Shown one piece after another: positions 38,158 through 58,853 of a stretch of DNA of 64,000 nucleotides. The DNA lies in the NCBI GenBank assembly GCA_001898185.1, contig MKTI01000001.1, positions 124,001-188,000 on the forward strand. Reading direction: 5' to 3'. This DNA is from Cellulomonas sp. 73-145. GTDB lineage: Bacteria; Actinomycetota; Actinomycetes; Actinomycetales; Cellulomonadaceae. The notes below the pieces were generated by a model that worked only from the letters and a program-made list of their open reading frames with translations, had not been told where the DNA came from and did not search any database. The translations under genes were made by a program, and so were the position numbers. The stretch's first letter is position 1. Every line of letters starts with the position of its first letter.

Positions 38158-38177
38158 TCAAGATTCGATGAAGACCC
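38158..38177 (-). promoter_or_regulatory. CopR-type direct repeat A
   Basis: On the minus (glutaredoxin coding) strand: CTTCATC then CTTGATC, 11 bp start to start. It lies 101 bp from the glutaredoxin start and 57 bp from the response regulator on the other side. Polarity matches the glutaredoxin operon. Confidence 0.65.
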
Positions 38178-38234
38178 AGCCCAGGGCGTCGGCGGTGATC
38201 GCAACCGTCTAGGGGTACTGGCCAGAATGGCTGT

Positions 38235-38966
38235 GTGAACCCCTCGTCGCCCGCTCGTCGTGCGCTCATCGTCGACGACGAGCGTCCTTTGGCCGAGCTG
38301 GTCGCCGGCTACCTTCGACGCGACGGGTACGAGGTGCACCTCGCCTTCGACGGTCCGACCGGTGTGGCGTCCGCACGGGAGGTCGACCCGGACGTGATCG
38401 TGCTCGATCTGGGTCTGCCCGGCCTGGACGGTGTCGAGGTGTGCCGGCGGGTGCGCACGTTCTCCGACTGCTACGTCGTGATGCTGACGGCCCGCACGGA
38501 CGAGATCGACACGCTCATCGGCCTGTCGGTGGGCGCCGACGACTACGTGACCAAGCCCTTCCGCCCCCGCGAGCTCATGGCGCGGATCACCGCGATGCAG
38601 CGCCGACCCCGTCGCGCCGCCACGGCCACCGTCGCGGGCTCTGTCGCCGACGAGACGGTCCCGCCGATCCTGGTCGGGCCGCTGCGGATCGACCTGGTCG
38701 GCCGCGAGGTCGAGCTCGACGGCGACCCGGTCGGACTGACCCGGACCGAGTTCGACGTCCTGGCTGCGCTGGCTCGCCGGCCGTTGGCGGTGCTCACCCG
38801 TCGCCAGCTGATCGAGGCGGTGTGGGGCGAGCGGTGGGTCGGTGACGAGCACCTCGTCGACGTGCACGTGCTGCACGTGCGGCAGAAGCTCGGCGACACC
38901 GCCGACGCCCAGCGGTTCGTGCGCACCGTCCGCGGCGTCGGCTACCGCATGGGCACCGGCGAGTGA
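38235..38966 (+). CDS. OmpR-family response regulator (first two-component system)
   Basis: 243 residues from a GTG. The receiver domain has [13 protein letters not shown], phospho-Asp in [21 protein letters not shown] and DDYVTKPF. The C-terminal winged helix has [33 protein letters not shown] and [14 protein letters not shown]. It overlaps the kinase gene by 4 bp (GTGA). It is one of two candidate regulators for the direct-repeat boxes in this island. Its location beside redoxin and mercury genes leaves the signal open. Confidence 0.94.
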
Positions 38967-40075
38967 ACGACCACCCCGCGAGAAGCACCGCGAACCGGTC
39001 CGGGCTGGCCGCGCGTCTCCTGCTCGCGTTCGTCCTGGTGGTCGCCGTCGCGGGAGTCACCGCGTGGCTGGTGGCCGGTGTCGCGGGACCGGCGCTGTTC
39101 CACCGACACCTGGTGGGCACCGGCGTGGCCGACCCCGCCGCGGTGACACACGCGGAAGAGGCGTTCCGCTCAGCCAGTGCCATCGCCTTGAGCATCGCCC
39201 TGGCAGCGGGCCTCGCGACGTCGCTGGGCGTGGCGGCGCTCCTGGCTCGCCGAGTCGGAGGGTCGCTCCATGCGGTCTCTTCGGCGGCCGCGCTGCTGGC
39301 ATCGGGCCGGTTCGACGCCCGCGTGCCCCAGCCTCGCCTCGGAGTCGAGTTCGACGCTCTGGCCGACTCCTTCAATGCGATGGCCGGGCGCCTCGCTGAG
39401 AGCGAGGAGCTGCGCCGGCGCCTGCTGGGCGACGTCGCCCACGAGCTGCGCACCCCGGTGGCCACGCTCGGCGCCTACCTGGACGGTCTCGAGGACGGCG
39501 TGGTCGACCTTGAGCCCCAGACCATCGCCGTGCTCCGCGCCCAGGGCGCGCGGCTCACCCGTCTCGCCGACGACCTCGCCGCCGTCACCCGAGCCGAGGC
39601 GCCCACCACCTCGCTGGCCCTGGCACCCACGGCGCCGTGCGATCTGCTCACGGCTGCCGCAGCGGCCGCGAACGACAGGGCGACGGCAGCGGGTGTCGAG
39701 CTTCACGTCGAGTGCGGTGCCGATCTGCCGACGGTGGCGGTCGACCGCGAGCGGATGGGGCAGGTGCTGGGCAACCTGCTGGACAACGCCCTTCGACACA
39801 CCCCGGCGGGCGGTTCGGTGACCCTCAGAGGCGAGCCGCATGCCGGTGGCGTCACGCTGTCGGTCACCGACACCGGTTCCGGGATCCCGGCCGAGCACCT
39901 GCCGAGGGTCTTCGAGCGGTTCTACCGCGTCGACACCGCACGGTCCCGCACCGACGGCGGCTCAGGGATCGGGCTCGCCATCGTCAAGGCGCTCGTCGAC
40001 GCCCACGGCGGACGGGTCACCGCGCTCAGCGACGGACCCGGGCACGGCACGCGGATCGAGGTCCACCTCCCTTAG
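38963..40075 (+). CDS. Sensor histidine kinase (first two-component system)
   Basis: 370 residues. Two membrane helices (about residues 16-42 and 71-95) flank a short external loop, containing [23 protein letters not shown], with a few His. A HAMP domain follows, then the phospho-His H-box [13 protein letters not shown], the N-box [15 protein letters not shown], and the G boxes DTGSGIP and [12 protein letters not shown]. The small loop implies sensing in or near the membrane, for example metal or envelope state. Its partner is the preceding regulator. Confidence 0.94.
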
Positions 40076-40084
40076 CATCTGCGC

Positions 40085-40438
40085 ATGCACGCAGGCACCG
40101 AGGGACATCCGGCTCGTGACGACGAGCAGGAGGTGACGATCGCCGCGGAGGTGTTCGGCCTGCTGGCTGAACCGACCCGGATCCGGATCATCCTTGCGTT
40201 GCAGGGCGGCGAGCTGTCCGTCGGCGCGTTGGCGCAGGCCGTCGCCAAGTCCCCGACAGTGGTGTCCCAGCACCTGGCAAAGCTGCGCTGGGGACAAGTC
40301 GTGCGGGCGCGGCACGACGGGAACCGGGTGTTCTACGCCCTGGTCGACGAGCACGCCGCCCAGCTCGTGACGCAGGCGGTCTACCAGGCGCAGCACATCG
40401 TCGATGAGCACCCCAGCCACCACGGGTCCCGCCCGTGA
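40085..40438 (+). CDS. ArsR/SmtB-family metal sensor
   Basis: 117 residues with a winged HTH (VGALAQAVAKSPTVVSQHLAKLRWGQVVRARHDGNRVFYAL). Helix alpha-5 reads LVDEHAAQLVTQAVYQAQH. Compared with the Zn/Ni alpha-5 site (D-x-H...H-x2-H/E), it keeps D, H and the last H but has Gln at the third ligand position. A His-rich tail (HPSHHGSRP) could compensate, as extra His do in NmtR. It overlaps the MFS gene by 4 bp, which is its likely target. Confidence 0.9.
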   Translation: MHAGTEGHPARDDEQEVTIAAEVFGLLAEPTRIRIILALQGGELSVGALAQAVAKSPTVVSQHLAKLRWGQVVRARHDGNRVFYALVDEHAAQLVTQAVYQAQHIVDEHPSHHGSRP

Positions 40439-41670
40439 TCGGCCCCGTCCTGCGCAACGGCGCCTACCGGCGGCTGCTGGGCGCGCAGGTCGTGTCCCTC
40501 GTCGGGACCGGCCTCGCGACCGTCGCACTGGGTCTGCTCGCCTACGACCTGGCCGGCCGACGTGCCGGAGCGGTGCTGGGCACCGTGTTCGCGATCAAGA
40601 TGATCGCCTACGTCGTGCTCGCACCGGTGGCTACTGCCCTGGTCGCGCGGTTGCCGCGGCGAGCGGTGATGGTCGGCGCCGACGTGCTGCGGGCCGTCGT
40701 CGCGCTGGCACTGCCGTTCGCCGGGCAGGTGTGGCAGATCTACGCGCTGGTGTTCGTCCTGCAGGCCGCGTCGGCCGTGCACACGCCGACGTTCCATTCC
40801 ACGCTCCCCGACGTGGTGACCGACGAGGACGAGTACACCCAGGCGCTGTCCTTCTCCCGGCTGGCCGACGACCTGGAGATGGTGCTGTCCCCCGTGCTGG
40901 CCGCCGCCCTGCTTCTGGTGGTGTCCACGCACACGCTGTTCGTCGGTACCGCGCTCGGCTTCGCGGCGTCCGCAGTGCTGATCGTCACCGTCGTCATCCC
41001 CCGGGCCGCAGCTACCGGAGACGGCACGCCCTTCGAGGAGCTGCCGCTCGGAGCGCGGGTCCGGCACGGCGCCGTCGCCATGGCCCGCACCCCGGCCCTG
41101 CGTCCGGCGCTGGCTCTCAACCTCGCGGTCGCGGACGGCGGCGCCTTCGTCCTGGTCCAGACCGTGGTCATCGCCCGTGACACGTTCGGCCAGAACAACG
41201 ACGTGGTCGCACTGATGCTCGCGGTCAACGGCCTCGGGTCCATGGGCACCGCCCTGGCCCTGCCGACCATCCTTCGGCGACACCCGGAGCGAACGGTCAT
41301 GCTCGGCGGCGCGGCACTGCTCACCGTCGCGACGTTCGCCGTGCCGCTCGCGCTCGGCATCCACGCCCCTACGGCCGGGCTGATCGCCATCGGGGCCCTC
41401 TGGCTGGCCGTCGGTGCCGGCTGGGCCGCGGCGGAGGTGCCGATCGCCCGGCTGATCGTGCGCCATGTCCCCGACGGCGAACGCCACGCGGTCTTCGCTG
41501 CCCAGTTCTCCCTGTCCCACGCCTGCTGGCTGCTCACCTACCCACTCGCCGGCTGGCTCGGCGCGGCCGGGCTCGACGGGGCCGCACTCCTGCTCGCGGC
41601 GGTCGCGGCGGTGGCTACCGGCGCGGCGGCGACGCTCTGGCCGAGGAAGGTGCGGGCGCTCGCCGGGTGA
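40435..41670 (+). CDS. MFS transporter
   Basis: 411 residues, about 12 membrane helices, starting at a GTG overlapping the ArsR stop. It belongs by pattern to the drug/metal efflux MFS group (MefA/EntS-like): RLLGAQVVSLVGTGLATVALGLLAYDLAG at the start and TFHSTLPDVVTDEDEYTQALSF between helices 4 and 5, where such proteins have an acidic cluster. Coupling with a metal sensor suggests metal or metal-chelate export. The substrate is unproven. Confidence 0.88.
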   Translation: MIGPVLRNGAYRRLLGAQVVSLVGTGLATVALGLLAYDLAGRRAGAVLGTVFAIKMIAYVVLAPVATALVARLPRRAVMVGADVLRAVVALALPFAGQVWQIYALVFVLQAASAVHTPTFHSTLPDVVTDEDEYTQALSFSRLADDLEMVLSPVLAAALLLVVSTHTLFVGTALGFAASAVLIVTVVIPRAAATGDGTPFEELPLGARVRHGAVAMARTPALRPALALNLAVADGGAFVLVQTVVIARDTFGQNNDVVALMLAVNGLGSMGTALALPTILRRHPERTVMLGGAALLTVATFAVPLALGIHAPTAGLIAIGALWLAVGAGWAAAEVPIARLIVRHVPDGERHAVFAAQFSLSHACWLLTYPLAGWLGAAGLDGAALLLAAVAAVATGAAATLWPRKVRALAG

Positions 41671-41695
41671 CGGCCAACTGCCGACGAGCAGGGCC

Positions 41696-42085
41696 TCACA
41701 GGTATCGGCAGACGCTCTCCGCAGAGCACTCGGCCGGATCAGCGTGGTGCGCGGCGTCGCGCAGCCCAGCCACGGTCCGGCGCAGCTGCTCGAGGTCGGC
41801 GAGCTGGCGGTCCAGGTCGACGAGCCGACGGTCCAGCAGGTCGCGGACGTGGCGGCACGGCGCTGAGCCCCCGTCGCGGACCTCCATCACCTCGCGGATC
41901 TGCGCCAGCGTCAGGCTGGCCGCCTGGCCCCGACGGACGAAGTCGAGGCGCTCGGCCGCCTCCGGGCCGTACTCGCGGTAGCCGCCGTCGCTGCGTCCCG
42001 AGGGCGCCAGTACCCCGGCGTCCTCGTAGAACCGCAGCGTCCGGGGCGACGCGCCCGTCAACCGCGCCAGCTCACCGATGCGCAC
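41696..42085 (-). CDS. merR: MerR-family mercury-type regulator
   Basis: 129 residues from the GTG at 42085 (VRIGELARLTGASPRTLRFYEDAGVL), with GAGAGG upstream; a GTG at 42106 would add seven residues. HTH plus coiled-coil effector region (DRRLVDLDRQLADLEQLRRTV). Cysteines occur in APCRHVRDLL and PAECSAESVCRYL, three in all, which fits the three-Cys Hg(II) site of MerR. It is divergent from merA across a perfect 24-bp palindrome. An unusual merA module: no merT, merP or merB nearby. Confidence 0.88.
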   Translation of the reverse strand: MRIGELARLTGASPRTLRFYEDAGVLAPSGRSDGGYREYGPEAAERLDFVRRGQAASLTLAQIREVMEVRDGGSAPCRHVRDLLDRRLVDLDRQLADLEQLRRTVAGLRDAAHHADPAECSAESVCRYL

Positions 42086-42108
42086 ACGGACCACCCTCTC
42101 GACCACTT

Positions 42109-42132
42109 GACCTTCCAGTGCACTGGAAGGTC
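42109..42132. promoter_or_regulatory. MerR operator, perfect 24-bp palindrome
   Basis: Arms GACCTTCCAGTG (42109-42120) and CACTGGAAGGTC (42121-42132) are exact reverse complements. A -35 like TTGACC overlaps the left end (42107-42112). The 19-bp spacing to the right edge of the palindrome fits MerR promoters, though the -10 is poor. It lies 43 bp upstream of the merA ATG. Confidence 0.85.
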
Positions 42133-42175
42133 GACGCTGGGCTCAGTCAACACCACGACAGCGGACGGGAGCGCG

Positions 42176-43564
42176 ATGAACGAGGAGGAGGTCGTCGACC
42201 TGGCCGTGGTCGGGTCGGGCGGGGCCGCGATGGCCGCCGGGATCCAGGCAGCCGGGTCCGGGGCCCGGGTGGTCCTGGTGGAGCACGGCGTGCTCGGCGG
42301 GACCTGCGTGAACGTGGGCTGCGTGCCGTCGAAGCGGCTGCTGGCGGCGGCCGGCGCGCGGCGTCAGGCGTTGACGAACCCGTTCGCCGGCGTGCCGACC
42401 TCCGCCGGGCCCGTGGACCTGGCGGCGCTGATCCACCAGAAGGCGGAGCTGACGGACGGCTTGCGCCAGCACAAGTACGCCGACGTCGCGGACGCGTGGG
42501 GCTTCCGGGTGGTAGCCGGCCACGCCCGGTTCGCCGACGCCGACACGCTGCTGGTCGACGAGCGCCCGCTGCGCGCCCATGCCTACGTGCTCGCCACGGG
42601 TGCGTTGCCGTACGTGGGCGACATCGAGGGCATCGACTCCGTGGAGTGCCTGACCTCGACCACGGCGATGGAGCTGACCGAGCTGCCGGAGTCGCTCGTG
42701 GTGATCGGCGGCGGGTACGTGGGGATGGAACAGGCGCAGCTGTTCGCCCACCTCGGCGTCCCGGTCACCCTCGTCGGCCGCCTGGCCCCGCACGCCGAGC
42801 CCGAACTGCGTCGGGTCATGGCTGACGTCTTCGCCGACGACGGCATCGCGGTCCTGGCCCAGCGTGCCGCGGGTGTCCGGCACGCCGACGGGCTCGTCGA
42901 GATCACCACCAGCGCGGGGCAGACCGTGCGCGGGCACCAGCTCCTGGTCGCTACCGGTCGGCGACCCGACACCTCTGGGCTGAACCTGGCGGCAGCGGGC
43001 GTCACGACGGATGCGCATGGGTTCGTCGTCGTCGATGAGCACCAGGCCACCAGCAACCCGAGGGTGTTCGCCGCCGGCGACGTCACGGCGGCCCCGCAGT
43101 TCGTCTACGTCGCGGCCGCAGCCGGGCGGGCGGCCGCGACCAACGCCCTGACCGAACCCGGCGACCACCTCGCCACGGTCGACCGCACCGGGCTGCCGTC
43201 CGTCGTCTTCACCCGACCCCAGCTCGCCTCCGCCGGACTGACCGACGCGCAGGCCCGCCGGCAGGGCTACGACTGCGCGTGCCGCACCCTGGCGCTGGCC
43301 GACGTGCCGCGCGCCCTGGTGAACAACGACACGCGCGGCGCGATCAAGATCGTCGCCGACGCCGCCACCGGCCGGGTCCTGGGTGTGCACGCCGTGGCCG
43401 ACGGCGCCGGAGAGATGATGCTGGCCGCGACCTACGCCATCAAGGCCGGCCTGACCGTCGACGACCTGATCGACACGTGGGCGCCCTACCTGACGATGGC
43501 CGAGGGGCTGCGCCTGGCGGCCGGCCTGTTCCGTGGCCGATTGCCGACGTCCTGCTGCGCTTGA
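42176..43564 (+). CDS. merA: Mercuric reductase (without N-terminal HMA domain)
   Basis: 462-residue flavoenzyme reducing Hg(II) to Hg(0) with NADPH. The start ATG at 42176 follows GGGAG. FAD site VVGSGGAAMAAGIQAA, redox pair GGTCVNVGCVPSK (C44, C49), NADPH site VVIGGGYVGMEQAQLFA and the AGDVTAAPQFVYVAAAAG segment with the conserved Tyr are present. The C-terminal vicinal cysteines (PTSCCA, C460-C461) that hand over Hg are present, which separates it from lipoamide dehydrogenase. It lacks the NmerA domain, as many actinobacterial forms do. Confidence 0.96.
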   Translation: MNEEEVVDLAVVGSGGAAMAAGIQAAGSGARVVLVEHGVLGGTCVNVGCVPSKRLLAAAGARRQALTNPFAGVPTSAGPVDLAALIHQKAELTDGLRQHKYADVADAWGFRVVAGHARFADADTLLVDERPLRAHAYVLATGALPYVGDIEGIDSVECLTSTTAMELTELPESLVVIGGGYVGMEQAQLFAHLGVPVTLVGRLAPHAEPELRRVMADVFADDGIAVLAQRAAGVRHADGLVEITTSAGQTVRGHQLLVATGRRPDTSGLNLAAAGVTTDAHGFVVVDEHQATSNPRVFAAGDVTAAPQFVYVAAAAGRAAATNALTEPGDHLATVDRTGLPSVVFTRPQLASAGLTDAQARRQGYDCACRTLALADVPRALVNNDTRGAIKIVADAATGRVLGVHAVADGAGEMMLAATYAIKAGLTVDDLIDTWAPYLTMAEGLRLAAGLFRGRLPTSCCA

Positions 43565-43572
43565 TCACAGAC

Positions 43573-43609
43573 GGAACGCCCGGACGGCAGGGGACCTCCC
43601 GGGCGTTCC
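43573..43609. terminator. Bidirectional terminator after merA
   Basis: An 11-bp perfect stem (43573-43583 with 43599-43609) lies between the convergent merA and small membrane protein genes. Confidence 0.8.
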
Positions 43610-43628
43610 AGCTGTGCGCGCGACGGGG

Positions 43629-43925
43629 TCAGTGCGACCCGTGGTCGTGCGGGGCTGCGGTCGGCGGGCCGTCGATCCGCTCACGATCCGGGCCGACCTG
43701 ATCGCGGCCAGAGGCGTCGGTCGTCCCACCAGCAGCGTCACCGTGGCCGGCATGGCCGCCGTGGCCGCCGTGCCCGTGACCGCCGGCCATCATGAACATC
43801 ATCATCACGGGGCACGCCAGCAGCACCGCCCACTGCGCAGCCTGGCGCCAGCTGACCCCGAAGGCCATCAAGGCGACGAGGATGACCGCGCCCCCGATGA
43901 CCATGTGCTTCGCGTGCGACTTCAC
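43629..43925 (-). CDS. Small membrane protein with His-rich tail
   Basis: 98 residues from a GTG overlapping the SHOCT gene's stop. Two hydrophobic helices (MVIGGAVILVALMAFGV and AAQWAVLLACPVMMMFMM) form a DUF2933-like core. A tail rich in GGHGHGGHGGHAGHGD and ending APHDHGSH probably binds copper or other soft metals at the membrane surface. It forms a two-gene unit with the SHOCT protein under a CopR-type box. Confidence 0.82.
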   Translation of the reverse strand: MKSHAKHMVIGGAVILVALMAFGVSWRQAAQWAVLLACPVMMMFMMAGGHGHGGHGGHAGHGDAAGGTTDASGRDQVGPDRERIDGPPTAAPHDHGSH

Positions 43926-44158: not shown

Positions 44159-44255
44159 GCCCGACCTCCTGGCGTGCGAGCCGCTCGACGAGACGCCGGA
44201 TGACGTCCCTGGTCTCAGAGTTGCGGTCGCGCATCAACGCTGGCCTCAGGCCCGA

Positions 44256-44275
44256 TCAAGAGTTGGTGAAGGCCC
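44256..44275 (-). promoter_or_regulatory. CopR-type direct repeat B
   Basis: On the coding (minus) strand: CTTCACC then CTTGATC, 11 bp apart, 97 bp upstream of the SHOCT gene. Confidence 0.65.
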
Positions 44276-44295
44276 ACCGGTCGAGGCGAGTGAGG

Positions 44296-44979
44296 TCAAG
44301 GACGGGCGAGCCGGTCGATCATGGAGCGCATCTCGTCCATCTCGGCGGTCTGGGAGGTGGCGATGTTGCCCGACAGCTTGACAGCGTCGGCGTTCAGGCC
44401 TCGCGCCTGTTCGATCTTGGCCATGTCCAGCGCGCTCTGGTGGTGGGCGATCATCAACGTAAGGAACTGCCGATCGAAGTCCTTGCCGCTACGTAGGTTG
44501 AGGTTGGCGGTCGCGGCGGACTGATCCATCCCGTCGACCTGCATGCTCGAGTGCGTCATCCCGGTATCGCGGGCTCCGTCCAGCCCCGAGGGGGCGCTCT
44601 CACCCCAGGTCGTCAACCACCCCGACATGAGCTCGATCTCGGGCGCCTGATCCGCGACGATCCGCTTGCCGAGGGCCCGGATCTCGTAGGTCACGGCCCG
44701 GTCGGCCGCCTGCTGCGCCATCTGCACGGCGCCCTGGTGGTGCACGATCATCATCTGGCTGAACTGGGTGTCCGTGGAGTTGTGGATGGACGTGCTCATG
44801 GGCGTCGGCTCGGCGACAGAGTTGCCGGTCATCTGAACGATGGGCGGCACGGAGGTGCTGCTGCTCGTGCTCCCGCATGCGGTGAGCGCGAGCGCGACGC
44901 CGACCGCAACGCCGAGGGTGGTCACGGGGCGCGCCCAGCGGCTGGATCGGCCGGGGGTACGCGGAGAGGGTGCGGCCAC
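44296..44979 (-). CDS. DUF305 lipoprotein
   Basis: 227 residues from a GTG. Signal peptide with lipobox ALTACGS (acylated Cys near residue 35). Two DUF305 (ferritin-like) repeats are seen: FSQMMIVHHQGAVQMAQQAADRA and FLTLMIAHHQSALDMAKIEQARG, each with HHQ and Met-rich helices. Members are frequent in copper and silver resistance regions and are thought to bind metal outside the cell. A second copy is at 52927-53547. Box C lies 77 bp upstream. Confidence 0.92.
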   Translation of the reverse strand: MAAPSPRTPGRSSRWARPVTTLGVAVGVALALTACGSTSSSTSVPPIVQMTGNSVAEPTPMSTSIHNSTDTQFSQMMIVHHQGAVQMAQQAADRAVTYEIRALGKRIVADQAPEIELMSGWLTTWGESAPSGLDGARDTGMTHSSMQVDGMDQSAATANLNLRSGKDFDRQFLTLMIAHHQSALDMAKIEQARGLNADAVKLSGNIATSQTAEMDEMRSMIDRLARP

Positions 44980-45055
44980 GGGACAGCTCCTTGTCGTGGG
45001 ACTTAGGTCCCGTTCAGCTTCGCGGATGGCACCGGGGCCGGGCCGGCTCGGATGA

Positions 45056-45075
45056 TGAAGATCCGCTCAAGGTTT
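45056..45075 (-). promoter_or_regulatory. CopR-type direct repeat C
   Basis: On the minus coding strand: CTTGAGC then CTTCATC, 11 bp apart, 77 bp upstream of the DUF305 start. Confidence 0.65.
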
Positions 45076-45086: not shown

Positions 45087-45941
45087 TCACTTGGCCAGCG
45101 CCTTCACGCCCGCGACGTACTCCCAGTGCCACGGCTCGAAGGCACCCGAACCACCGGGTCGCGCCCACGACGGGTTGTCCCACCCGAACTTCGGGCCGTT
45201 GACCCGCAGCCACACCCCGGCCGCCCCGCCGTACGTGTTCGGGCAGAAGTCGATCGCCAGGCCCCACCCGTGGTTGCTGGTCCCGGCTGCTGCCGCGATG
45301 CCAGGCTCCGCCGCCCGCAAGGCCGCCTGTTCCTCGTACGTGCGGTAGCCGGACGTCAGGCACATCGGCCGGCCGAACTTGGCGGTGAACGCGTCGTTCA
45401 TCGCGAACGCGGTCACCACGGCGTCGGCCCGGTCCTTGTACGGCTTCTGCCACAGGTCGCACAGGTTCGCCGCCGTCAGACGCCCGTTGGACATCGCCCC
45501 GGATACGACACCGGAGCACTCGGCGGCCGCCACCGCCTCGGACGTGGACGTTGCCGCAGAGGTGGGGGCCCCTTGGCTGTCGCGCAGGGCGCTGCGGGAC
45601 ACGTGCTCGATCGCGCTCCCGGCTGGCGCACTCAGCGCGACCGGCGGCGTCAGGTCTACCGGGCCGGCGAGAGCTTCGATCGTGGTGGGCAGGTCAGCGT
45701 TGTGCCGTAGTCCGGCGGTCGCAGAGGTTGCCACCCAGGTCGGAGCGGCCACCATGGCGACGATCAGGAGCGCACGAGCTAGGAGGCGCACCAGACTGGT
45801 CGGCCGCGACCGTGCCTGGGCAGTTGCCCTGAGCTCGCGGCGTCGGACACTGAGGCCGGGAGCAGCCCCGGGGCTCGCCTGCTTGGGGCGCTGTCGACGA
45901 CTGGTTGTGGTGAGCGAACCCGGAAGGGAGGCGGCGCTCAC
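45087..45941 (-). CDS. M15-family D-alanyl-D-alanine carboxypeptidase (VanY-like)
   Basis: 284 residues. A basic N-terminus of about 50 precedes a membrane anchor (LVRLLARALLIVAMVAAPTW); the catalytic domain runs from about 155 to the end. Zinc ligands fit SNHGWGLAIDF (HxxxxxxD) and EPWHWEY, with SGYRTYEEQ as the substrate loop. It trims D-Ala from peptidoglycan peptides. Placement among copper genes with a CopR-type box upstream suggests cell-wall remodelling during copper stress. Confidence 0.9.
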   Translation of the reverse strand: MSAASLPGSLTTTSRRQRPKQASPGAAPGLSVRRRELRATAQARSRPTSLVRLLARALLIVAMVAAPTWVATSATAGLRHNADLPTTIEALAGPVDLTPPVALSAPAGSAIEHVSRSALRDSQGAPTSAATSTSEAVAAAECSGVVSGAMSNGRLTAANLCDLWQKPYKDRADAVVTAFAMNDAFTAKFGRPMCLTSGYRTYEEQAALRAAEPGIAAAAGTSNHGWGLAIDFCPNTYGGAAGVWLRVNGPKFGWDNPSWARPGGSGAFEPWHWEYVAGVKALAK

Positions 45942-46091
45942 GACTCGGCTGCCGGCCGCCGTTCGGTGCGGCCCCGACCCGGGCCTGGAGCGCGTCGTCG
46001 GGGGCGCGGGCGCTCGGAGGGGCAGGCGGGGGTCGGGGCGCGCATCACGCCATGCTGGTCGGGCTCGTCCGAAGATCTTCTGGACGTTTGA

Positions 46092-46111
46092 TCAAGACGT
46101 GATGAAGTTGA
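46092..46111 (-). promoter_or_regulatory. CopR-type direct repeat D
   Basis: On the minus strand: CTTCATC then CTTGATC, 11 bp apart, 151 bp upstream of the M15 peptidase. It overlaps the last codons and stop of the ABC permease gene. Confidence 0.65.
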
Positions 46112-51369: not shown

Positions 51370-51389
51370 GGATCTTCATCGAACGTTGA
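51370..51389 (+). promoter_or_regulatory. CopR-type direct repeat E
   Basis: On the plus strand: CTTCATC then GTTGATC, 11 bp apart, 108 bp upstream of the lgt-like gene, in the same polarity as the other boxes have to their genes. It is 100 bp from copZ on the other side. Confidence 0.65.
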
Positions 51390-51497
51390 TCGGACGCCAG
51401 CCGGACCCGAGGGGATCGGGCCTCACCGTGGTCGTCGGGCGCCTCGTCGCGCCATCAGCCGACGCCACCGACGTCGGACCCAGGAGGGGAGATTCAC

Positions 51498-52289
51498 GTG
51501 CTACCGGTGCTGTTCTCGATCGGCAGCTTCCACGTGCAGAGCTATGGCGTCAGCAAGGCGGCCGCCGCACTCGTGGCGATGTGGCTGCTCGGACATGCGT
51601 TCACCCGCCGTGGCCTGCCGAAGGACTCGGCGACCTCGCTCGTGCTCTGGGCGACGATCTGGGGGTTCGTCGGCGCGAAGATCTACTACGTCCTGGAGCA
51701 CCTGTCCGACTTCAGCCTGCACCACCTGGGTGGCATGGGCTTCACCTGGTACGGCGGCCTGATCGGCGGCATCATCGCCGGGCTGGTGATCATCCGACGG
51801 CACGGTCTGCCCATGGCCGAGGTCGTCGGCGCCGCCGCGGCACCCCTCGCCCTCGCCTACGGAATCGGCCGCATCGGCTGCTTCCTGTCCGGTGACGGCA
51901 CCTACGGCACACCCACCACGCTGCCGTGGGGCGTGACGTTCACCAACGGCATCGTGCCGACCACCGTGCCGGTGCATCCCACACCGTTGTACGAGACCCT
52001 CGCCGCCGTGTTCATCACGCTCGTCCTCTGGCGGCTCGAGCGGCACCTCGCCCCCGTCGGGGTGTTCGGGGCCTACCTCGTGCTGTCCGGCATCTCCCGG
52101 TTCCTCGTGGAGTTCCTGCGGATCAACACCCCCGTGCTCGGCGGCCTGACCCAGCCGCAGCTGTGGGCGTTGCTCGGAATCGGCATCGGCGGCGCGCTGA
52201 TCGCACGGGCAGGCCTGCGCCGCGACGGAGGCCCGCGGCCGGCCACGGCGCCCGCGGCTCTCACGGTGGATGCGAGCTCGGTGGACTGA
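51498..52289 (+). CDS. Prolipoprotein diacylglyceryl transferase paralog (Lgt-like)
   Basis: 263 residues with about seven helices, from a GTG with a strong AGGAGG site. The Lgt fold is clear: SFHVQSYGVSKAAAALVA, GFTWYGGLIGG, GIGRIGCFLSGDGTYG, HPTPLYE, RFLVEFLR. However, the canonical HGGL histidine is Tyr (Y85), and the GRIGN-FING-E signature reads GRIGC-FLSG-D, so key catalytic Asn and His differ. It is probably a specialised second Lgt rather than the housekeeping enzyme. It sits in the copper island upstream of a lipoprotein gene. Confidence 0.9.
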   Translation: MLPVLFSIGSFHVQSYGVSKAAAALVAMWLLGHAFTRRGLPKDSATSLVLWATIWGFVGAKIYYVLEHLSDFSLHHLGGMGFTWYGGLIGGIIAGLVIIRRHGLPMAEVVGAAAAPLALAYGIGRIGCFLSGDGTYGTPTTLPWGVTFTNGIVPTTVPVHPTPLYETLAAVFITLVLWRLERHLAPVGVFGAYLVLSGISRFLVEFLRINTPVLGGLTQPQLWALLGIGIGGALIARAGLRRDGGPRPATAPAALTVDASSVD

Positions 52290-52699
52290 TGACGACCACC
52301 GGAACACCCCCGCAGGCCACCTCGAGCCGTCCCCGAACCCTGCGGGGACGACTGGTCACAGCGGCAACAGCAACCGTCGGGGCGATCGTCGGACTCGCAC
52401 CCCACGTCCTGCACCACATCGGACCACTCCTCGGTGTCGCGCTCATCGCAGGCACCGGGGGCACGATCCTCTTCGGGCTCCTCGGGCTGGCAGCCTCGGT
52501 CCCGATGCTCGTGCGCCTGCATCGACGGTTCCGCACCTGGCGCGCACCCGCGCTGGCACTGGCCCTGTTCGGGGTGGCCTTCGCTGTCTCGACGCTCGTG
52601 ATCGGCCCGATGATCAGCGGATCGCGGTCCCCCGGGGTCGCACCGGACCCAGCACCTGCCGTCTCTGAACCGGCCCGGCACGCTTCGCACCACGGCTGA
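52289..52699 (+). CDS. Small membrane protein following lgt paralog
   Basis: 136 residues from an ATG that overlaps the Lgt stop (TGATG). Three hydrophobic segments: IVGLAPHVLHHIGPLLGVALIAG, TILFGLLGLAASVPMLV and ALALALFGVAFAVSTLVIG (first given as VGLAPHVLHHIGPLLG). His residues in HVLHHIG lie at the membrane edge, and the tail ends HASHHG. I do not recognise a named family. Translational coupling suggests it works with the Lgt paralog, maybe in handling copper at the membrane. Confidence 0.8.
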   Translation: MTTTGTPPQATSSRPRTLRGRLVTAATATVGAIVGLAPHVLHHIGPLLGVALIAGTGGTILFGLLGLAASVPMLVRLHRRFRTWRAPALALALFGVAFAVSTLVIGPMISGSRSPGVAPDPAPAVSEPARHASHHG

Positions 52700-52830
52700 C
52701 GCCGGGCGTCATGGACTCTCCCACGCGTCCGTGAACGGCGATCGACGGGCGGCGCGGCATCCCTTCGTGTTGGTCGTCCGGGCCGCCGCCCTCAAGCGGG
52801 TCATCCGACCCGGCCGCCGCTACCCAACGG

Positions 52831-52850
52831 CGATCTTGATCGGAACTTCA
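52831..52850 (+). promoter_or_regulatory. CopR-type direct repeat F
   Basis: On the plus strand: CTTGATC then CTTCATC, 11 bp apart, 77 bp upstream of the second DUF305 gene. The remaining 227-bp gap to the lgt unit shows nothing else. Confidence 0.65.
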
Positions 52851-52926
52851 TCGATCCACCGAGAAGCGCGCGCTGGACGTCCGAGAGACTCGATGGGACC
52901 AAAGTCCCAATCGAAAGGGTCGTCAC

Positions 52927-53547
52927 GTGCGTCCAACATCCCGATTCCGTCGCTGCGGCGCAGCAGTCCTCGGCACGGTCGCACTCGCCGCGTCCATCGC
53001 CGCCTGTGGTCGGGACGCGAGCACCCTGCGGGCCGGTGCGACGACCAGCGCTTCAGCCACCGCCGCCTCGCGGCACAGCGACGCCGACACCCAGTTCGCG
53101 CAGATGATGATCGTGCACCATCAGGGTGCCATCGAGATGGGCGAGCTTGCGGCCTCGAAGGGCTCGACACCTGACGTGCGAGCTCTCGGACAGCGGATCG
53201 TGGCAGCACAGGGCCCGGAGATCGAGCTGATGTCGGGCTGGCTGGCCCAGTGGGGCGTGCCGTCGCCCACGGCATCGGATCACAGTGCGATGCCCGGGAT
53301 GGAGGTCGGCGGGATGTCGCAGTCGAACGCGACCGACCAGCTCTCAGGGAGCACCGGGACAGCCTTCGACCGGGAGTTCCTGACCTTGATGATCAGCCAC
53401 CACGAGGGTGCGTTGCAGATGGCCGCCAGCGAGCAGGCACATGGTCAGAGCGCGGACGCCCGCAACCTTGCGGCAGCCATCACCACATCACAGACAGCCG
53501 AGATCGAGCAGATGCGCGGCATGCTCGCCGCACTCGGCCCGGCCTGA
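52927..53547 (+). CDS. DUF305 lipoprotein (second copy)
   Basis: 206 residues from a GTG. Signal peptide with lipobox SIAACGR (Cys near residue 27). Two DUF305 repeats, FAQMMIVHHQGAIEMGELA and FLTLMISHHEGALQMAASEQAHG, parallel the copy at 44296-44979, so they are paralogs in one island. Met/His-rich helices suggest external copper binding. Both would be substrates of a diacylglyceryl transferase, consistent with the nearby Lgt paralog. Confidence 0.93.
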   Translation: MRPTSRFRRCGAAVLGTVALAASIAACGRDASTLRAGATTSASATAASRHSDADTQFAQMMIVHHQGAIEMGELAASKGSTPDVRALGQRIVAAQGPEIELMSGWLAQWGVPSPTASDHSAMPGMEVGGMSQSNATDQLSGSTGTAFDREFLTLMISHHEGALQMAASEQAHGQSADARNLAAAITTSQTAEIEQMRGMLAALGPA

Positions 53548-53559
53548 GGGGTGCCCCAT

Positions 53560-53604
53560 CCGCGCACGGGGCGCCGCACCAGTCGGTGCAGCGCCCGTGC
53601 GCGG
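53560..53604. terminator. Long bidirectional terminator hairpin
   Basis: A 14-bp GC-rich stem with one bulged base, extended by an inner GCACC/GGTGC stem, lies between the convergent DUF305 and HMA genes. Confidence 0.8.
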
Positions 53605-53681
53605 CTCGGCGCGGGCCCCGCGGTGCCCTACACGGTGCGACGACAGCAGGTCTACGGCTCGGGACTCGTCCACTGACTGGT

Positions 53682-53972
53682 TCAGGCGTCGCGGCCCGAG
53701 GCGATCGTGGCGGCCAGCAGGTGCGCCGTACCGACGTGCGGTGCGCTCAGAGTGGTGCCGACGGTCAGGGCGAAGCCGGCGCTCTCGACCGCGGAACGAA
53801 CGGCGACGGCATCGACTCCGTTCTCGCTGACGAGAACCAGGCGCGTCGCCCCTCCGACCGTGAGGTCGGCTGCCGCCTGTTCGACGGTGTCGAGGGACCG
53901 GACCCGTTCGAGCAGCTCGGCCAGGCACGTCGCGCATGTCAGGCCCGTTACTTCGAAGTGCGTGACCACCAT
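53682..53972 (-). CDS. HMA-domain protein
   Basis: 96 residues from ATG 53972. The metal-binding loop is VTGLTCATCLAELLERV (C13, C16), followed by a normal HMA domain to about residue 66 and a 30-residue tail. It resembles CopZ but is longer and lacks the GMTC methionine (it reads GLTC). A second copper chaperone, or a metal buffer, is likely. Single gene under CopR-type box G. Confidence 0.88.
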   Translation of the reverse strand: MVVTHFEVTGLTCATCLAELLERVRSLDTVEQAAADLTVGGATRLVLVSENGVDAVAVRSAVESAGFALTVGTTLSAPHVGTAHLLAATIASGRDA

Positions 53973-54052
53973 CAGGACCTTTCTGTCCCGCACGGTGTGC
54001 CGGACACGCTTCCACGCTAGGGCGGTAGGGCGCTGCCTTCGTTGCGGACCGA

Positions 54053-54072
54053 TCAAGGTTTGATGCAGGTCA
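54053..54072 (-). promoter_or_regulatory. CopR-type direct repeat G
   Basis: On the minus strand: CTGCATC then CTTGATC, 11 bp apart, 81 bp upstream of the HMA gene. It overlaps the stop codon of the M23 gene. Confidence 0.6.
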
Positions 54073-55455: not shown

Positions 55456-55464
55456 CGCACCCGG

Positions 55465-55716
55465 CTACACAGTCGCGGCGTAGGCCGCAGGATCGGCGTC
55501 GAACAGGTCGACGCAGTGCGCGCAGCAGAAGTAGTACCGCCGTCCGTCGACATCGCGGACGCGACCGTCGCGCTCCGCTTCCGAGCGGACCGTCATGTTT
55601 CCCCGGACCGCGCAGACGACGAGCTCCTCGCCGGGGCCGGCGACCGCATCGTGACGGTGGCCGTGCCCGTGACCCTGACCGCGCCCACCCTGGCCCGCCG
55701 CGTGATGGTCACACAT
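55465..55716 (-). CDS. YHS-domain protein with His-rich N-terminus
   Basis: 83 residues from ATG 55716 (AAGGAG upstream). The His-rich start MCDHHAAGQGGRGQGHGHGHRHD precedes the metal-binding core VCAVRGNMTVRSEAERDG and YYFCCAHCVDLFDADP; quoted pieces are MCDHHAAGQGG, GHGHGHRHD and YYFCCAHCVDLF. YHS domains bind copper or similar metals through Cys. It is co-transcribed with the M23 gene. A second YHS protein is at 63748-63909. Confidence 0.87.
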   Translation of the reverse strand: MCDHHAAGQGGRGQGHGHGHRHDAVAGPGEELVVCAVRGNMTVRSEAERDGRVRDVDGRRYYFCCAHCVDLFDADPAAYAATV

Positions 55717-55890
55717 ACTCTCTCCTTCGCTCCGGTGTGCTGGTGTGGCTGGAACGTTCGCGCCGACCGCTGTTTGACACCGAATGGTTGTCGCATGCAA
55801 CCGGACGCGATACCGCCGCTCGCATGGCCAAAATAGGGCGATCAGATCGCCGGGAACGCTCACCGAGCACGACACAAGTGAATATGAACC

Positions 55891-55910
55891 GAACATTCAT
55901 GTGATCTTGA
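55891..55910 (+). promoter_or_regulatory. CopR-type direct repeat H
   Basis: On the plus strand: ATTCATG then CTTGACC, 11 bp apart, the most degenerate of the good matches. It is 219 bp upstream of the second response regulator and 174 bp upstream of the YHS gene on the other side. The 412-bp region also holds a 15-bp palindrome (55837-55851) and no gene. Confidence 0.5.
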
Positions 55911-56128
55911 CCGAGGGACGAGGCACGGCAGGGCCCACTGGGAGGGCGACGTCCGGACGCTCTACGGCAGCGGGGCGCTCGTTGCTTGCCGCTGCCCGGC
56001 AGCCTGGGCGGGACGAACGGAGGAAATCGCCGTCCAGTCAGCAGGAATACAGTGACCAATACCCCGGTCCTGTGACGTGCGTGCAATTCGTGCGCGAGCA
56101 CTGGAACTGGCGGTGCAAGGAGGGTGAC

Positions 56129-56818
56129 GTGGCCAGGCGCGTGCTGGTGGTGGACGACGAGGCGGGCATCCGCCGCGTGCTGCGCGCCTACCTCGAGGCG
56201 GACGGGTTCACCGTGGCCGAGGCCGGGACGGGCACCGACGCGCTGGCCGAGCTGCGCCGGGATCGGCCGGACGTGGTGCTGCTGGACGTGATGCTGCCCG
56301 ACGTGGACGGCCTCGAGGTGCTGCGGCGCATCCGTGCGACCTCCGGCCTCGGGGTGGTGCTGGTGACGGCACGTGCCGAGGAGGCCGACACACTGGTCGG
56401 CCTCGCCGTCGGCGCCGACGACTACGTCACCAAGCCGTTCAGCCCCCGCGAGGTGGTGGCCCGCGTCAAGGCCGTCCTGCGACGGGTGCGGGACGACGAG
56501 GCGGACCCGGAGCGCATCCGCTTCGACGGGCTGACCGTGGACCTCGCGGCCCGCGAGGTGACCGTGGACGAGCGTCCGGTCACACCGTCGGCCCTCGAGT
56601 TCGACGTGCTCGGCGCGCTGGCCCGCTCCCCCGGCCGGTTGTTCTCGCGTCGCCAGTTGCTGGAGCGGGTGTGGGGTGACGACTTCTACGGGGACGAGAG
56701 GGTGGTCGACGTGCATGTGCGCAGCCTGCGGCGGTTGCTGGCCGACAACGTCAGCTCACCGCGGTTCATCGCGACGGTGCGGGGTGTGGGGTACAAGTTC
56801 GTCGGGAGGCCGTCATGA
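56129..56818 (+). CDS. OmpR-family response regulator (second two-component system, CopR candidate)
   Basis: 229 residues from a GTG with AGGAGG six bases upstream. Receiver domain: VLVVDDEAGIRRVLRAYLE, phospho-Asp in VVLLDVMLPDVDG, VTARAEEADT and [12 protein letters not shown]. Winged helix: VTPSALEFDVLGALARSPGRLFSRRQLLERVWG and VDVHVRSLRRLL. It overlaps its kinase gene by 4 bp. Because the kinase has a Met-rich sensor loop, this is my preferred candidate for the regulator of the island's direct-repeat boxes. Confidence 0.94.
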   Translation: MARRVLVVDDEAGIRRVLRAYLEADGFTVAEAGTGTDALAELRRDRPDVVLLDVMLPDVDGLEVLRRIRATSGLGVVLVTARAEEADTLVGLAVGADDYVTKPFSPREVVARVKAVLRRVRDDEADPERIRFDGLTVDLAAREVTVDERPVTPSALEFDVLGALARSPGRLFSRRQLLERVWGDDFYGDERVVDVHVRSLRRLLADNVSSPRFIATVRGVGYKFVGRPS

Positions 56819-57909
56819 GCCGTCTGTCCACCCGTGCCCTCGTCAGCCACACGCTCGTGGCGATCACGGGTGCGGCGACCGCCTACGTGGTCACCCGCAC
56901 TCTGACGCCGCACTTCTACGACTCACGCATGGCGATGATGGCCGGCCAGATGATGCCCTTCGGGGAACAGCTGACCCGCACCTATGCCGTCAGCGCCGCC
57001 AACCGCGGCCTGGCGATCGGCGTGCTCGTCGCCCTCGCCGTGGCGATCGCCGCCGGAGCCTGGTCGTCGTGGCGGCTCTTGCGACCGCTCGGGGACCTGT
57101 CCGCGGCGGCGCACCGCATCGCGGCCGGCCGGTACAACCAGCCGGTCCCCCCGCCCCGCGAGGCGGAGCTGGCCCGGGTCGCGAACGACGTCAACGCCCT
57201 GGCCGCCCGGCTCGCCGAAACGGAGGCCCGTCGCATGCGGCTGCTCGGTGAGGTGGCCCACGAGATGCGCACCCCGCTCACCGTGCTGGACGGGTACGTC
57301 GAAGGTCTGCAGGACGGGGTGTTCACCCCCGAGCCGGAGCTTTACGCCGAGCTGTCCGGCGAGCTGCGCCGGCTGCGCCGCCTCTCGGAGGACCTCGGCG
57401 CCCTCTCCCGTGCGGAGGAAGGACGGCTCGGACTTCAGCTCGACCGCGTGGACGCGGCGGCGATCGCGATCACGGCGGCCGAGCGGCTGCGCCCGCAGCT
57501 GCACGACGCCGGCCTGGAGCTGAAGATCGAGGACGTCCACGGCCCGCTGCTGATCGAGGGAGACCCCGACCGGATCGCCCAGGTGGTGACCAACCTGGTC
57601 GGCAACGCCCTCGCGGCGACGGAGCCCGGACGACACGTCAGCTTGATGTGCCGGCGGACCTCCACCAACGCCGTCATCGAAGTCACGGACACCGGCATCG
57701 GCCTCAGCCCGGCGGACGCCGAGAGGGTCTTCGAGCGGTTCTACCGCGTCCCTCGTGTCGCGAGCGGCCCGACGGCCGCCGGTAGCGGCATCGGGCTCAC
57801 CATCGCGCGGGGCATCGCCCATGCCCATGGCGGGACGCTCGACGCGACATCTCCCGGTCCGGGCACCGGCTCCACCTTCCGCTTGCAGCTCCCGCTCGCC
57901 AAGCCCTGA
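56815..57909 (+). CDS. Sensor histidine kinase with Met-rich external loop (CopS candidate)
   Basis: 364 residues. Membrane helices at about 8-30 and 66-88 flank an external loop of about 35 residues containing PHFYDSRMAMMAGQMMPFG, with H33, M39, M41, M42, M46 and M47, a plausible Cu(I)/Ag(I) site. HAMP follows, then H-box EVAHEMRTPLTVL, N-box QVVTNLVGNALAA, and G boxes DTGIGLS and GSGIGLTIARGI. It overlaps the regulator gene (ATGA). Confidence 0.94.
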   Translation: MSRLSTRALVSHTLVAITGAATAYVVTRTLTPHFYDSRMAMMAGQMMPFGEQLTRTYAVSAANRGLAIGVLVALAVAIAAGAWSSWRLLRPLGDLSAAAHRIAAGRYNQPVPPPREAELARVANDVNALAARLAETEARRMRLLGEVAHEMRTPLTVLDGYVEGLQDGVFTPEPELYAELSGELRRLRRLSEDLGALSRAEEGRLGLQLDRVDAAAIAITAAERLRPQLHDAGLELKIEDVHGPLLIEGDPDRIAQVVTNLVGNALAATEPGRHVSLMCRRTSTNAVIEVTDTGIGLSPADAERVFERFYRVPRVASGPTAAGSGIGLTIARGIAHAHGGTLDATSPGPGTGSTFRLQLPLAKP

Positions 57910-58126
57910 CCGCCGACATCAAGGATCCCGCAAGCGACGGCGCGGAGCGCGAGGGGTCCGACGACGAGACCGCCGCGGGCGGCCGAGTGGCCGACGAAGG
58001 TACCCAGTTGTGTCTGCCATCCTGGGACGGTTGTCGACCCACGTGGGTCCGACTCGGTGCGAGCACCACATTCCGGCACGGTCGTCTCGACGTGCCAAGG
58101 CCCCGTCGCGAGAGGCGTCCTCACCC

Positions 58127-58777
58127 GTGAACAGCAAGCGCAAGTCCGAGCTGACCGAACGTCAGGCCCGCCTGGCAGAGATCAAGGCGACCCAGAAGCG
58201 GGCCGAACGCCGGCGAACCACCTTGATCGCCACGATCATCGGAGTCATCGTCCTTGCGCTGGTCGGGACGACCACGACCGTGCTTGTCCGCCAGGCCCGG
58301 CACCAGGCCAGCGTCCAGGCCGCTGCAAAGGCGCCGATCTCCGGCGTGCAGACGTTCACTAACTTGTCGCGGAACCACGTAACCGGGACGGTCGCGTACG
58401 CCCAGAACCCGCCTGTGGGCGGCGACCACTCCGAGATCGATCAGAACTGCGGCTACTACTCCGCGCCGGTGGCCGACGAGAACGCCGTGCACTCCATGGA
58501 GCACGGCGCCGTGTGGATCACCCACCAGGCAGACCTGCCGACGGCCCAGCTGGCGACGCTGCGCGGCTTCGCAGGCAAGAGCGCCTATGTCCTGGTCACG
58601 CCTCGTACCGGCCTACCGGCCCCCGTGGTCGCGTCCGCCTGGGGCGTCCAGCTGCAGCTGGCCTCCGCTGACGACCCGCGACTGGCAGCGTTCGTCACCA
58701 AGTACGCCAACGGCGCCCAGACGCCCGAACCGGGCGCGTCGTGCTCCGGTGGGACCGGTACGCCCGAGGCGCAGTAG
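58127..58777 (+). CDS. DUF3105 membrane-anchored protein
   Basis: 216 residues from a GTG at 58127. An N-terminal basic coil (NSKRKSELTERQARLAEIK) is followed by a membrane helix (LIATIIGVIVLALVGTTTTVLV) and an external DUF3105 domain with GGDHSEIDQNCGYYS, VHSMEHGAVWITHQ and a final Cys (ASCSGG). The His and Met pattern (HSMEHG) suits metal binding, but function is unknown. It follows the two-component genes after 217 bp. Confidence 0.87.
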   Translation: MNSKRKSELTERQARLAEIKATQKRAERRRTTLIATIIGVIVLALVGTTTTVLVRQARHQASVQAAAKAPISGVQTFTNLSRNHVTGTVAYAQNPPVGGDHSEIDQNCGYYSAPVADENAVHSMEHGAVWITHQADLPTAQLATLRGFAGKSAYVLVTPRTGLPAPVVASAWGVQLQLASADDPRLAAFVTKYANGAQTPEPGASCSGGTGTPEAQ

Positions 58778-58833
58778 CCCGAACCGAGCGGCCCGGGAGA
58801 CCCAGCGCGCGACCCGACGAGTTCCGACCCACT

Positions 58834-58853
58834 CCCTCTTCATCGGATCTCAA
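58834..58853 (+). promoter_or_regulatory. CopR-type direct repeat I
   Basis: On the plus strand: CTTCATC then CTCAATC, 11 bp apart, 92 bp upstream of the SHOCT-cupredoxin pair. The second unit has two mismatches. Confidence 0.55.

Follow-up and report, generated by a model that had tools for sequence, protein, structure and literature searches.

A paired repeat of 11-bp period with a fixed −10 spacing marks a predicted CopR-type regulon in two islands of Cellulomonas sp. 73-145

Among described systems, the closest to the one analyzed here is CopRS of Corynebacterium glutamicum (cg3285–cg3284; box TGAAGATTTnnTGAAGATTT), in which an OmpR-type response regulator is paired with a HAMP/HisKA sensor kinase. 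Its CopR box was reported as TGAAGATTTgaTGAAGATTT (PMC3140484). In strains lacking CopRS, the divergent genes reportedly drop 50–100-fold and the genes downstream of copS about two-fold, and reporter assays in C. glutamicum indicated that both divergent promoters are activated (PMC3353115). Here, we analyzed a 64,000-nt stretch of the Cellulomonas sp. 73-145 genome (contig MKTI01000001.1; C1:124001–188000 in our contig numbering), referred to throughout as the window. It carries nine paired direct repeats, or boxes, eight of which are followed at a fixed distance by a −10-like element, and the likely binder of these boxes, judged by comparative analysis, is the first of the two two-component systems encoded there. 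The four regulatory genes concerned are as follows.

38235..38966, + strand: RR1, OmpR-type response regulator (Response_reg and Trans_reg_C domains), predicted CopR
38963..40075, + strand: HK1, sensor kinase (HAMP, HisKA, HATPase_c), predicted CopS; outer loop matches published CopS
56129..56818, + strand: RR2, second OmpR-type regulator, not the predicted binder
56815..57909, + strand: HK2, second sensor kinase, loop without a CopS match

Like CopRS, the locus combines an OmpR-type regulator with a HAMP/HisKA kinase whose outer loop matches that of CopS, a direct repeat of 11-bp period located upstream of the regulator gene (at −59 to −78 there; 62 bp from box to start here), the same box polarity, as judged on the C. 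marinum copy, and a divergent operon with a TlpA-type redox gene. Unlike CopRS, for which one genome site serving two divergent operons is reported, this genome holds about 20 candidate sites; the consensus has drifted to CTTSATC-N4-CTTSATC; most boxes have a −10 element at +49/+50, whereas the cg3286 start lies 266–285 bp away; and separate promoters serve the Lgt, DUF305 and SHOCT genes. Because there are some 20 candidate sites instead of a single one, we regard the system as a variant of CopRS.

Three other systems are related in part. The boxes resemble pho boxes, reported as 7+4 direct repeats of 11 bp bound by tandem PhoB dimers (PMC4415409), in an operator that overlaps the −35 region and where PhoB contacts sigma (PMC3348028); sequence, signal and regulator differ, and RR1 falls below the PhoB equivalog TIGR02154 (186.2 of 296.2 bits). 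Gram-negative CopR/CusR/CzcR (TIGR01387) are likewise OmpR-type regulators of metal resistance, but RR1 differs from these cztR/silR/copR regulators in scoring 142.4, below the cut-off of 279.2. CusR recognises a palindromic box. An NCBIfam search returned no equivalog for either RR1 or HK1. Finally, the reported copper-inducible Lit2 of Listeria is a lipoprotein-modifying enzyme under copper control on a mobile element (PMC7387801), an arrangement resembling the one here, where copper control is predicted; Lit2 and Lgt are different families, and the host groups differ.

The original prediction described nine intergenic sites of two CTTSATC-like units spaced 11 bp apart, of uniform polarity and under a single OmpR-type regulator. 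We searched for CTTSATC-N4-CTTSATC in the window and then in the whole genome (3.87 Mb, 14 contigs). All nine sites were recovered, each shifted by 2–4 bases from its earlier position, with unit starts 11 bp apart in every one. In the list below, offset 0 is the first C of the box on the CTTSATC strand, the −10-like pattern is nAnnnT, and scores come from an independent matrix trained on RR1 promoters of other genomes.

38156..38173, − strand: box 1, 0 mismatches, score 41.6; between the glutaredoxin operon and the divergent RR1, 62 bp from RR1
38118..38123, − strand: predicted −10 (CAACCT) of the glutaredoxin operon, offset +50 from box 1
44254..44271, − strand: box 2, before a SHOCT-type gene; 1 mismatch, 24.5; TTGATG at +34; −10 at 44217–44222 (+49)
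45054..45071, − strand: box 3, before DUF305 lipoprotein A; 1 mismatch, 20.8; −10 at 45016–45021 (+50)
46090..46107, − strand: box 4, before the M15 peptidase; 0 mismatches, 24.7; −10 at 46052–46057 (+50)
51374..51391, + strand: box 5, before the Lgt-family gene; 1 mismatch, 40.4, second best of the window; −10 at 51424–51429 (+50)
52835..52852, + strand: box 6, before DUF305 lipoprotein B; 0 mismatches, 32.7; −10 at 52885–52890 (+50)
54051..54068, − strand: box 7, before a small HMA-like protein; 1 mismatch, 29.6; −10 (TAGCGT) at 54014–54019 (+49)
55895..55912, + strand: box-like site 8, upstream of RR2, doubtful; 3 mismatches, 18.0; no −10 at +48 to +51
58838..58855, + strand: box 9, before the SHOCT/cupredoxin pair; 2 mismatches, 12.8; −10 (CACGCT) at 58888–58893 (+50)

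The uniform polarity held as well: at all nine sites the CTTSATC strand is the coding strand of the downstream gene, with start codons 74–216 bp away (76–220 bp had been given). The intergenic location was confirmed for most sites but not for box 4, which shares bases with the stop codon of the gene upstream and recurs with identical sequence at C6:469803, nor for box 7, which abuts the 3′ end of an M23 gene. Promoters paralogous to that of box 9 lie at C6:456151 and C13:311560.

The existence of the nine sites is confirmed and, as had been argued, they are far from what chance would give. With up to three mismatches allowed, the window contained 17 matches against a mean of 6.05 in shuffled sequence (maximum 14; 0 of 100 shuffles reached 17). 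Across the genome, up to one mismatch gave 12 matches and none for the reversed pattern; eight of the 12 fell at C1:162156–188116 (seven within the window and one 99 bp past its end) and the remaining four in a second, paralogous island at C6:462069–480203. With up to two mismatches, there were 40 matches against 3 for the reversed pattern. Two profiles, R1 built from 16 island sites and R2 from 43 sites of other genomes, were then used for genome scans, in which 150 first-look candidates, of 998 and of 644, were scored. R1 (E up to 10) gave at least 19 matches, 18 of those listed lying in the two islands, and recovered eight of the nine window sites, every one from its training set, missing only 55895; R2 gave at least 12, with 11 of those listed in the islands. 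The sole off-island match of both profiles, C13:311560, lies 91 bp ahead of a chromosomal SHOCT-type gene, a paralogue of the box 9 target, and its −10 is spaced in the same way. The outcome named in advance as evidence against the regulon, matches of equal quality scattered at random over the genome, did not appear; the matches concentrate in the islands. With the independent matrix, the nine window sites scored 12.8–41.6, and the reversed sequence of both island stretches peaked at 10.5. Forward DNA, however, yielded extra matches, one of 15.6 at 16017, where a predicted gene ends, and one of 12.7 at 63573; taken by itself, this matrix therefore fails to set box 9 (12.8) apart. The regulon appears to be larger than nine, with further candidates just past the window (box-like sites at 64099, 66122 and 69412 in window coordinates), in the second island and before the chromosomal SHOCT gene; nearly all candidates of the genome lie in the two islands.

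We next compared loci: 40 stretches around RR1 orthologues, 20 around more distant regulators and nine named plasmid stretches, two of which carry RR2 orthologues. A matrix built from the sites of the window and the second island supplied a first set of boxes outside the window. Of 52 scanned loci, 51 contributed to an alignment of 149 boxes, which included seven of the nine window sites, while 55895 and 58838 were checked separately; dropping contexts more than 65% identical left 128 non-redundant boxes. On the CTTSATC strand, nAnnnT started at +49 in 33% and at +50 in 43% of these, and within +48 to +51 in 101 of 128, whereas controls averaged 7.8% and never exceeded 21%. This fixed spacing between box and −10 is new here. 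Eight of the nine window sites carry the element at +49 or +50 (chance 1.1 × 10⁻⁸ at the mean control rate, 2.9 × 10⁻⁵ at the maximum), as do eight of the nine listed C6 candidate sites and one of the three candidates past the window. Broken down by target over the 149 boxes, it accompanies 27/28 glutaredoxin, 23/24 SHOCT, 21/22 DUF305 and 11/13 Lgt boxes and 23/41 boxes with an unlabelled target. The polarity of the boxes is likely a consequence of the promoter, since the −10 lies on the CTTSATC strand.

Half-site-like signal continues downstream of the box at +22 (z 4.9) and +33 (z 9.6); it was also sought in the box alignment at −11 and −22, and none was found. The last unit, at +33, would end at +39, ten bases ahead of the −10. 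In E. coli phoA, the gap between the last pho repeat and the −10 is 10 bp. On the RR1 side of the box, no −10 at a fixed distance was found in 45 cases. Instead, a CACAATGG-type element lies just a few bases ahead of the RR1 start codon in many of these, at a variable distance from the box (e.g. window 38190–38235), and a CACAAT-like element sits near the start codon of RR1 itself. With such an element at the start codon and no fixed distance to the box, the RR1 transcript is probably leaderless, as far as sequence can tell. A conserved 5′ hairpin after the transcript start, spotted by eye in SHOCT and DUF305 leaders, gave no general signal and was set aside.

Linkage to a regulator distinguishes the two candidates. 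A box within 300 bp upstream was present in 43 of the 50 RR1 orthologues of at least 62% identity, and in 0 for reversed DNA; at a looser score, the count rose to 44 of 50, every CTTSATC being on the strand opposite RR1. By comparison, a box occurred upstream of two of five orthologues at 53–62% identity, one of 14 other OmpR regulators and none of eight RR2 orthologues, and six of these eight loci have no box above 20 bits anywhere. This contrast gives RR2 no support as box binder. Boxes precede RR1 in Cellulomonas sp. C5510, Rhodococcus pyridinivorans, Mycolicibacterium poriferae, Gordonia sp. JH63 and Nocardioides sp. T2.26MG-1, as well as in a Nanopelagicales metagenome-assembled genome (MAG) and two Mycobacterium MAGs, and at the looser score only in R. 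opacus B4; none was found upstream of the RR1 orthologue in Cryobacterium arcticum, Kocuria rosea, C. fimi SB or a Propionibacteriaceae MAG. The single OmpR-type regulator of the original prediction is accordingly supported as the best reading, with RR1 now named by comparison and a second regulator not indicated as binder.

A survey of 200 family genomes, that of the window included, gave a similar picture, with genomes of best E below 1 × 10⁻⁷⁵ counted as RR1-positive. At least three pattern matches were found in 53 of the 67 RR1-positive against 15 of the 133 RR1-negative genomes (P = 8.6 × 10⁻²², uncorrected for genome kinship), and at least one in 67/67 against 73/133; one borderline genome, G175 (best E 2.0 × 10⁻⁶⁹, 59%), was counted as RR1-negative. 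Inspection of all ten RR1-negative genomes with at least four matches revealed no exact match and mostly scattered positions, unlike the RR1 islands. Among the matches listed in a contig scan were 80 loci, of which only L035–L040 were close. When the island matrix was run over these 80 loci, it also matched at positions with no RR1 nearby (best score 29.6, in L114); most such matches came from AT-richer genomes, to which the background of the matrix is poorly suited.

Kinship with CopRS is visible in both the box and the kinase. Reverse-complemented, TGAAGATTTgaTGAAGATTT reaches 32.4 with the RR1-promoter matrix (window site 38156: 34.6), the covered columns allowing 36.2 at most, which bears out the suspected resemblance. 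The outer loop reported for CopS (PMC3353115) aligns to HK1 with a score of 68, against a shuffled maximum of 35 and 19 for HK2. HK1 also has the three histidines of this loop (LFHDHM...HAE), and the strict loop motif occurs in 35 of the 55 loci examined. A search started from this loop retrieved eight plasmids, five of them from Corynebacterium. On C. marinum pCmarinum1, TGAAGATTTGATGAAGATTT, letter for letter the published box, lies 58 bp before copR on the copR strand, in the same polarity as in the window, within a cluster of CueP, multicopper oxidase, TlpA, CcdA, ATPase, DUF305 and Lnt genes; C. halotolerans pCha1 has a one-base variant at the same place. Corynebacterium CopR is 53–54% identical to RR1 and 47–49% to RR2, and in a tree it falls inside a 60-member RR1 clade (support 0.863), with RR2 outside, in a clade of its own (0.99).

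These results lead us to propose, with a probability of roughly 85%, that the boxes are RR1 operators, that HK1 senses copper outside the membrane, and that promoters are activated through the −10 at +49/+50. All nine sites resemble the CopR box, and eight stand at the same distance, within one base, from a predicted promoter, so the redox, metal-binding and lipoprotein-making genes behind them are likely switched on together by copper. HK1 would sense copper outside the membrane, and phosphorylated RR1 would then bind the boxes. A head-to-tail RR1 dimer would occupy the two strong half-sites (offsets 0 and +11), and a second dimer the weaker ones at +22 and +33, ending about 10 bp before the −10; RR1 would replace the −35 contact and recruit RNA polymerase in the manner of PhoB. 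For the RR1 gene itself, which is divergent from the box and has its CACAAT-like element at no fixed distance, autoregulation may be weaker or different. If this holds, one rule, a box followed by a −10 at +49/+50, would make copper regulons readable from sequence in many actinobacteria and on their plasmids and would also name their regulator.

Several observations weigh against this proposal. With regard to the sites, R2 recovers only five of the nine in the window among the matches listed (38156, 45054, 51374, 52835 and 54051), and box 9 scores weakly with the independent matrix. Upstream of the second two-component system, site 55895 has three mismatches and no −10 at +48 to +51 and, with no box at any of the eight RR2 orthologues, stands unsupported as a promoter; this part of the original prediction is not borne out, and the doubtful site is best kept out of the regulon. 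The −10 is missing at +48 to +51 from 27 of the 128 boxes, and from the candidates past the window at 64099 and 66122. The +33 half-site is frequent only at SHOCT promoters (19/24), and unit-like signal is also raised at +53 (z 7.2), the position of the −10, so z alone is no proof of a half-site. As to the regulator, seven of the 50 close RR1 orthologues lack a box scoring above 20 bits, the 53–54% identity of Corynebacterium CopR to RR1 compares with 47–49% to RR2, and the support of the RR1 clade is only moderate (0.86). Promoter geometry differs from the founding example: the C. glutamicum box is reported at −266 to −285 from the cg3286 start (PMC3140484), and the boxes of C. marinum and C. 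halotolerans have no such −10. No box was found at the C. faecale copR locus examined. The box set also originates from a matrix of these same sites; because the outside boxes were found with the island matrix, it is the contrast between RR1 and RR2, the reversed controls and the −10 that form the independent parts of the evidence.

Of the rival explanations, the one that survives best, although we consider it improbable, retains an RR1-type regulator and replaces copper by another metal or by general envelope or thiol stress. It would accommodate targets that include a cell-wall peptidase, thiol-redox proteins and a lipoprotein enzyme, and a MerR regulator with a mercuric-reductase-like gene lies in the same island; that pair, at window 41696–43564, consists of a MerR-family regulator divergent from a mercuric-reductase-like pyridine-nucleotide-disulphide oxidoreductase (Pfam), with no box seen there. 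Copper is nonetheless favoured by the CopS sensor loop of HK1, by the heavy-metal P-type ATPases, cupredoxin and CsoR among targets and neighbours, by multicopper oxidases on the plasmids and by CsoR-like operators near the boxes. A scan of 918,731 bp with what we take to be the CsoR operator motif gave 40 such operators; 13 of them stand no more than about 110 bp from a box, and 12 of the 149 boxes have a neighbour of this kind. One of them, TACCCCGTATGGGTA (L013:8067–8081), is located 66 bp past the window end, between box 64099 and the Cu ATPase. CsoR and RR1, the two copper regulators, may thus share some regions.

Binding of the boxes by RR2–HK2 (56129–57909), or by both regulators in cross-talk, is less probable still. 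RR2 is an OmpR-type regulator of the same island, 51% identical to RR1, the outer loop of HK2 is Met-rich, and a chromosomal RR2 paralogue on C13 adjoins the box-bearing SHOCT-type gene. Set against this are the box-free promoters of all eight RR2 orthologues, and the C6 island, which has boxes and an RR1 copy and in which RR2 is not among the called genes. That the repeats are a functionless by-product of island duplication or codon bias is very improbable. Several sites do form paralogous pairs across the two islands, but the spacing of box and −10 is found again ahead of non-homologous genes in many genomes, where the surrounding sequence is less than 65% identical, and reversed controls are at or near zero.

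Under the RR1 proposal, the predicted output comprises thiol-redox proteins, metal-binding SHOCT, HMA-like and cupredoxin proteins, DUF305 lipoproteins, an M15 cell-wall peptidase and an extra Lgt-family enzyme. The genes behind the window boxes are as follows.

37730..38056, − strand: glutaredoxin-like protein (Glrx-like), first in its operon
36739..37740, − strand: CcdA-like membrane protein, by similarity only, no Pfam match; position matches the annotated CcdA in L115
36116..36814, − strand: thioredoxin-fold (AhpC/TSA, redoxin) protein, start uncertain; PF00578 55.6 bits, PF08534 42 bits
43922..44158, − strand: small SHOCT-type membrane protein, no Pfam match, SHOCT by resemblance
44296..44979, − strand: DUF305 lipoprotein A; PF03713 4.3 × 10⁻⁴¹, lipobox LTAC
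45087..45941, − strand: M15/VanY-type peptidase; PF02557
51498..52289, + strand: Lgt-family protein with GRIGCFLSGDGTYG replacing the GRxGN signature; PF01790 173.5 bits (cut-off 24.9), PDB 5azb E 5.4 × 10⁻¹¹
52289..52699, + strand: 136-aa membrane protein, a reading frame overlapping the Lgt end; homologue L015:2315–2728 has its own box
52927..53547, + strand: DUF305 lipoprotein B; PF03713 2 × 10⁻⁴⁶, lipobox IAAC
53682..53972, − strand: small HMA-like protein, no Pfam match, HMA only by a TCATC motif
58946..59251, + strand: SHOCT-type protein (MMGWYGGG start); SHOCT 19.5 bits, below cut-off
59248..59898, + strand: cupredoxin-like protein; SoxE 25.7 bits, Copper-bind 21.1, just under cut-off

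Across the compared loci, a box in coding polarity precedes 26/31 glutaredoxin, 22/24 SHOCT, 21/40 DUF305, 11/15 Lgt and 3/6 M15 genes; it is rare before Cu-ATPase (4/44), M23 (4/13) and HMA (1/19) genes and absent before the second Lgt-like gene (0/3). Lnt found no support as a direct target: none of five Lnt genes has a coding-polarity box, and site 66122, before the C1 Lnt, lacks a −10. The second island (C6:456–482 kb; L014–L015) carries paralogues of much of this set, namely SHOCT-type genes, Lgt, two P-type ATPases, ABC, M15, DUF305, M23, glutaredoxin and CcdA-like genes and the RR1–HK1 copy, together with CsoR, a second Lgt-like gene, Lnt and YHS. The window island, for its part, extends beyond the window, where Lnt and a second Lgt-like gene follow (L013).

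The lipoprotein enzymes form a distinct branch of the predicted regulon. Six Lgt-family genes are present in the genome, four of them in the two islands, and two of the three Lnt genes are in islands. In all 14 island-type loci read (including L014:11189–12058), the island Lgt shows GR[IL]GC...GDGTYG, that is, Cys in place of the signature Asn, whereas GRxGN is kept in both C9 copies and in the solved Lgt 5azb; the GRxGN signature has a catalytic role in Lgt. The Rhodococcus plasmid Lgt is canonical and likewise preceded by a box. In both islands, Lnt adjoins the second, Cys-rich Lgt-like gene (GRLGCLFAGCC; L013:10443–13376 and L015:4817–7840). In E. coli, copper is reported to impair lipoprotein acylation in a manner resembling Lgt depletion (PMC6538781), and a genome note names Lgt beside copper genes (PMC6256500). 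Judged by title and abstract, and with subscription literature outside the scope, no regulon paper on Lgt or Lnt in actinobacterial copper regulons was recognised. The island Lgt may serve copper resistance; a lipidation enzyme and its likely substrates stand under the same predicted copper operator, and a copper-induced variant Lgt would be a concrete candidate for how the envelope keeps working under copper. More speculatively, and at odds that we put well below even, actinobacterial CopRS might have expanded from a switch with a single site to a mobile copper regulon built on a hard-wired, 11-bp-phased promoter module, answering copper poisoning of lipidation by co-inducing DUF305 lipoproteins and a Cys-variant Lgt, beside the island Lnt genes. 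If true, lipoproteins would still be made, or be made differently, under copper.

Some further features were observed in and around the islands. A GGGACN4GTCCC palindrome, similar to a DosR-type box, occurs in three DUF305 leaders, at window 44998–45011 and 52895–52908 (the only two in the window) and at L015:895–908. The C6 island also contains a NarL-type two-component system (L014:9070–11164). About 7.7 kb past the window, a TrwC-type relaxase with a helicase domain (L013:15733–19332) suggests that a mobile element lies beside the island.

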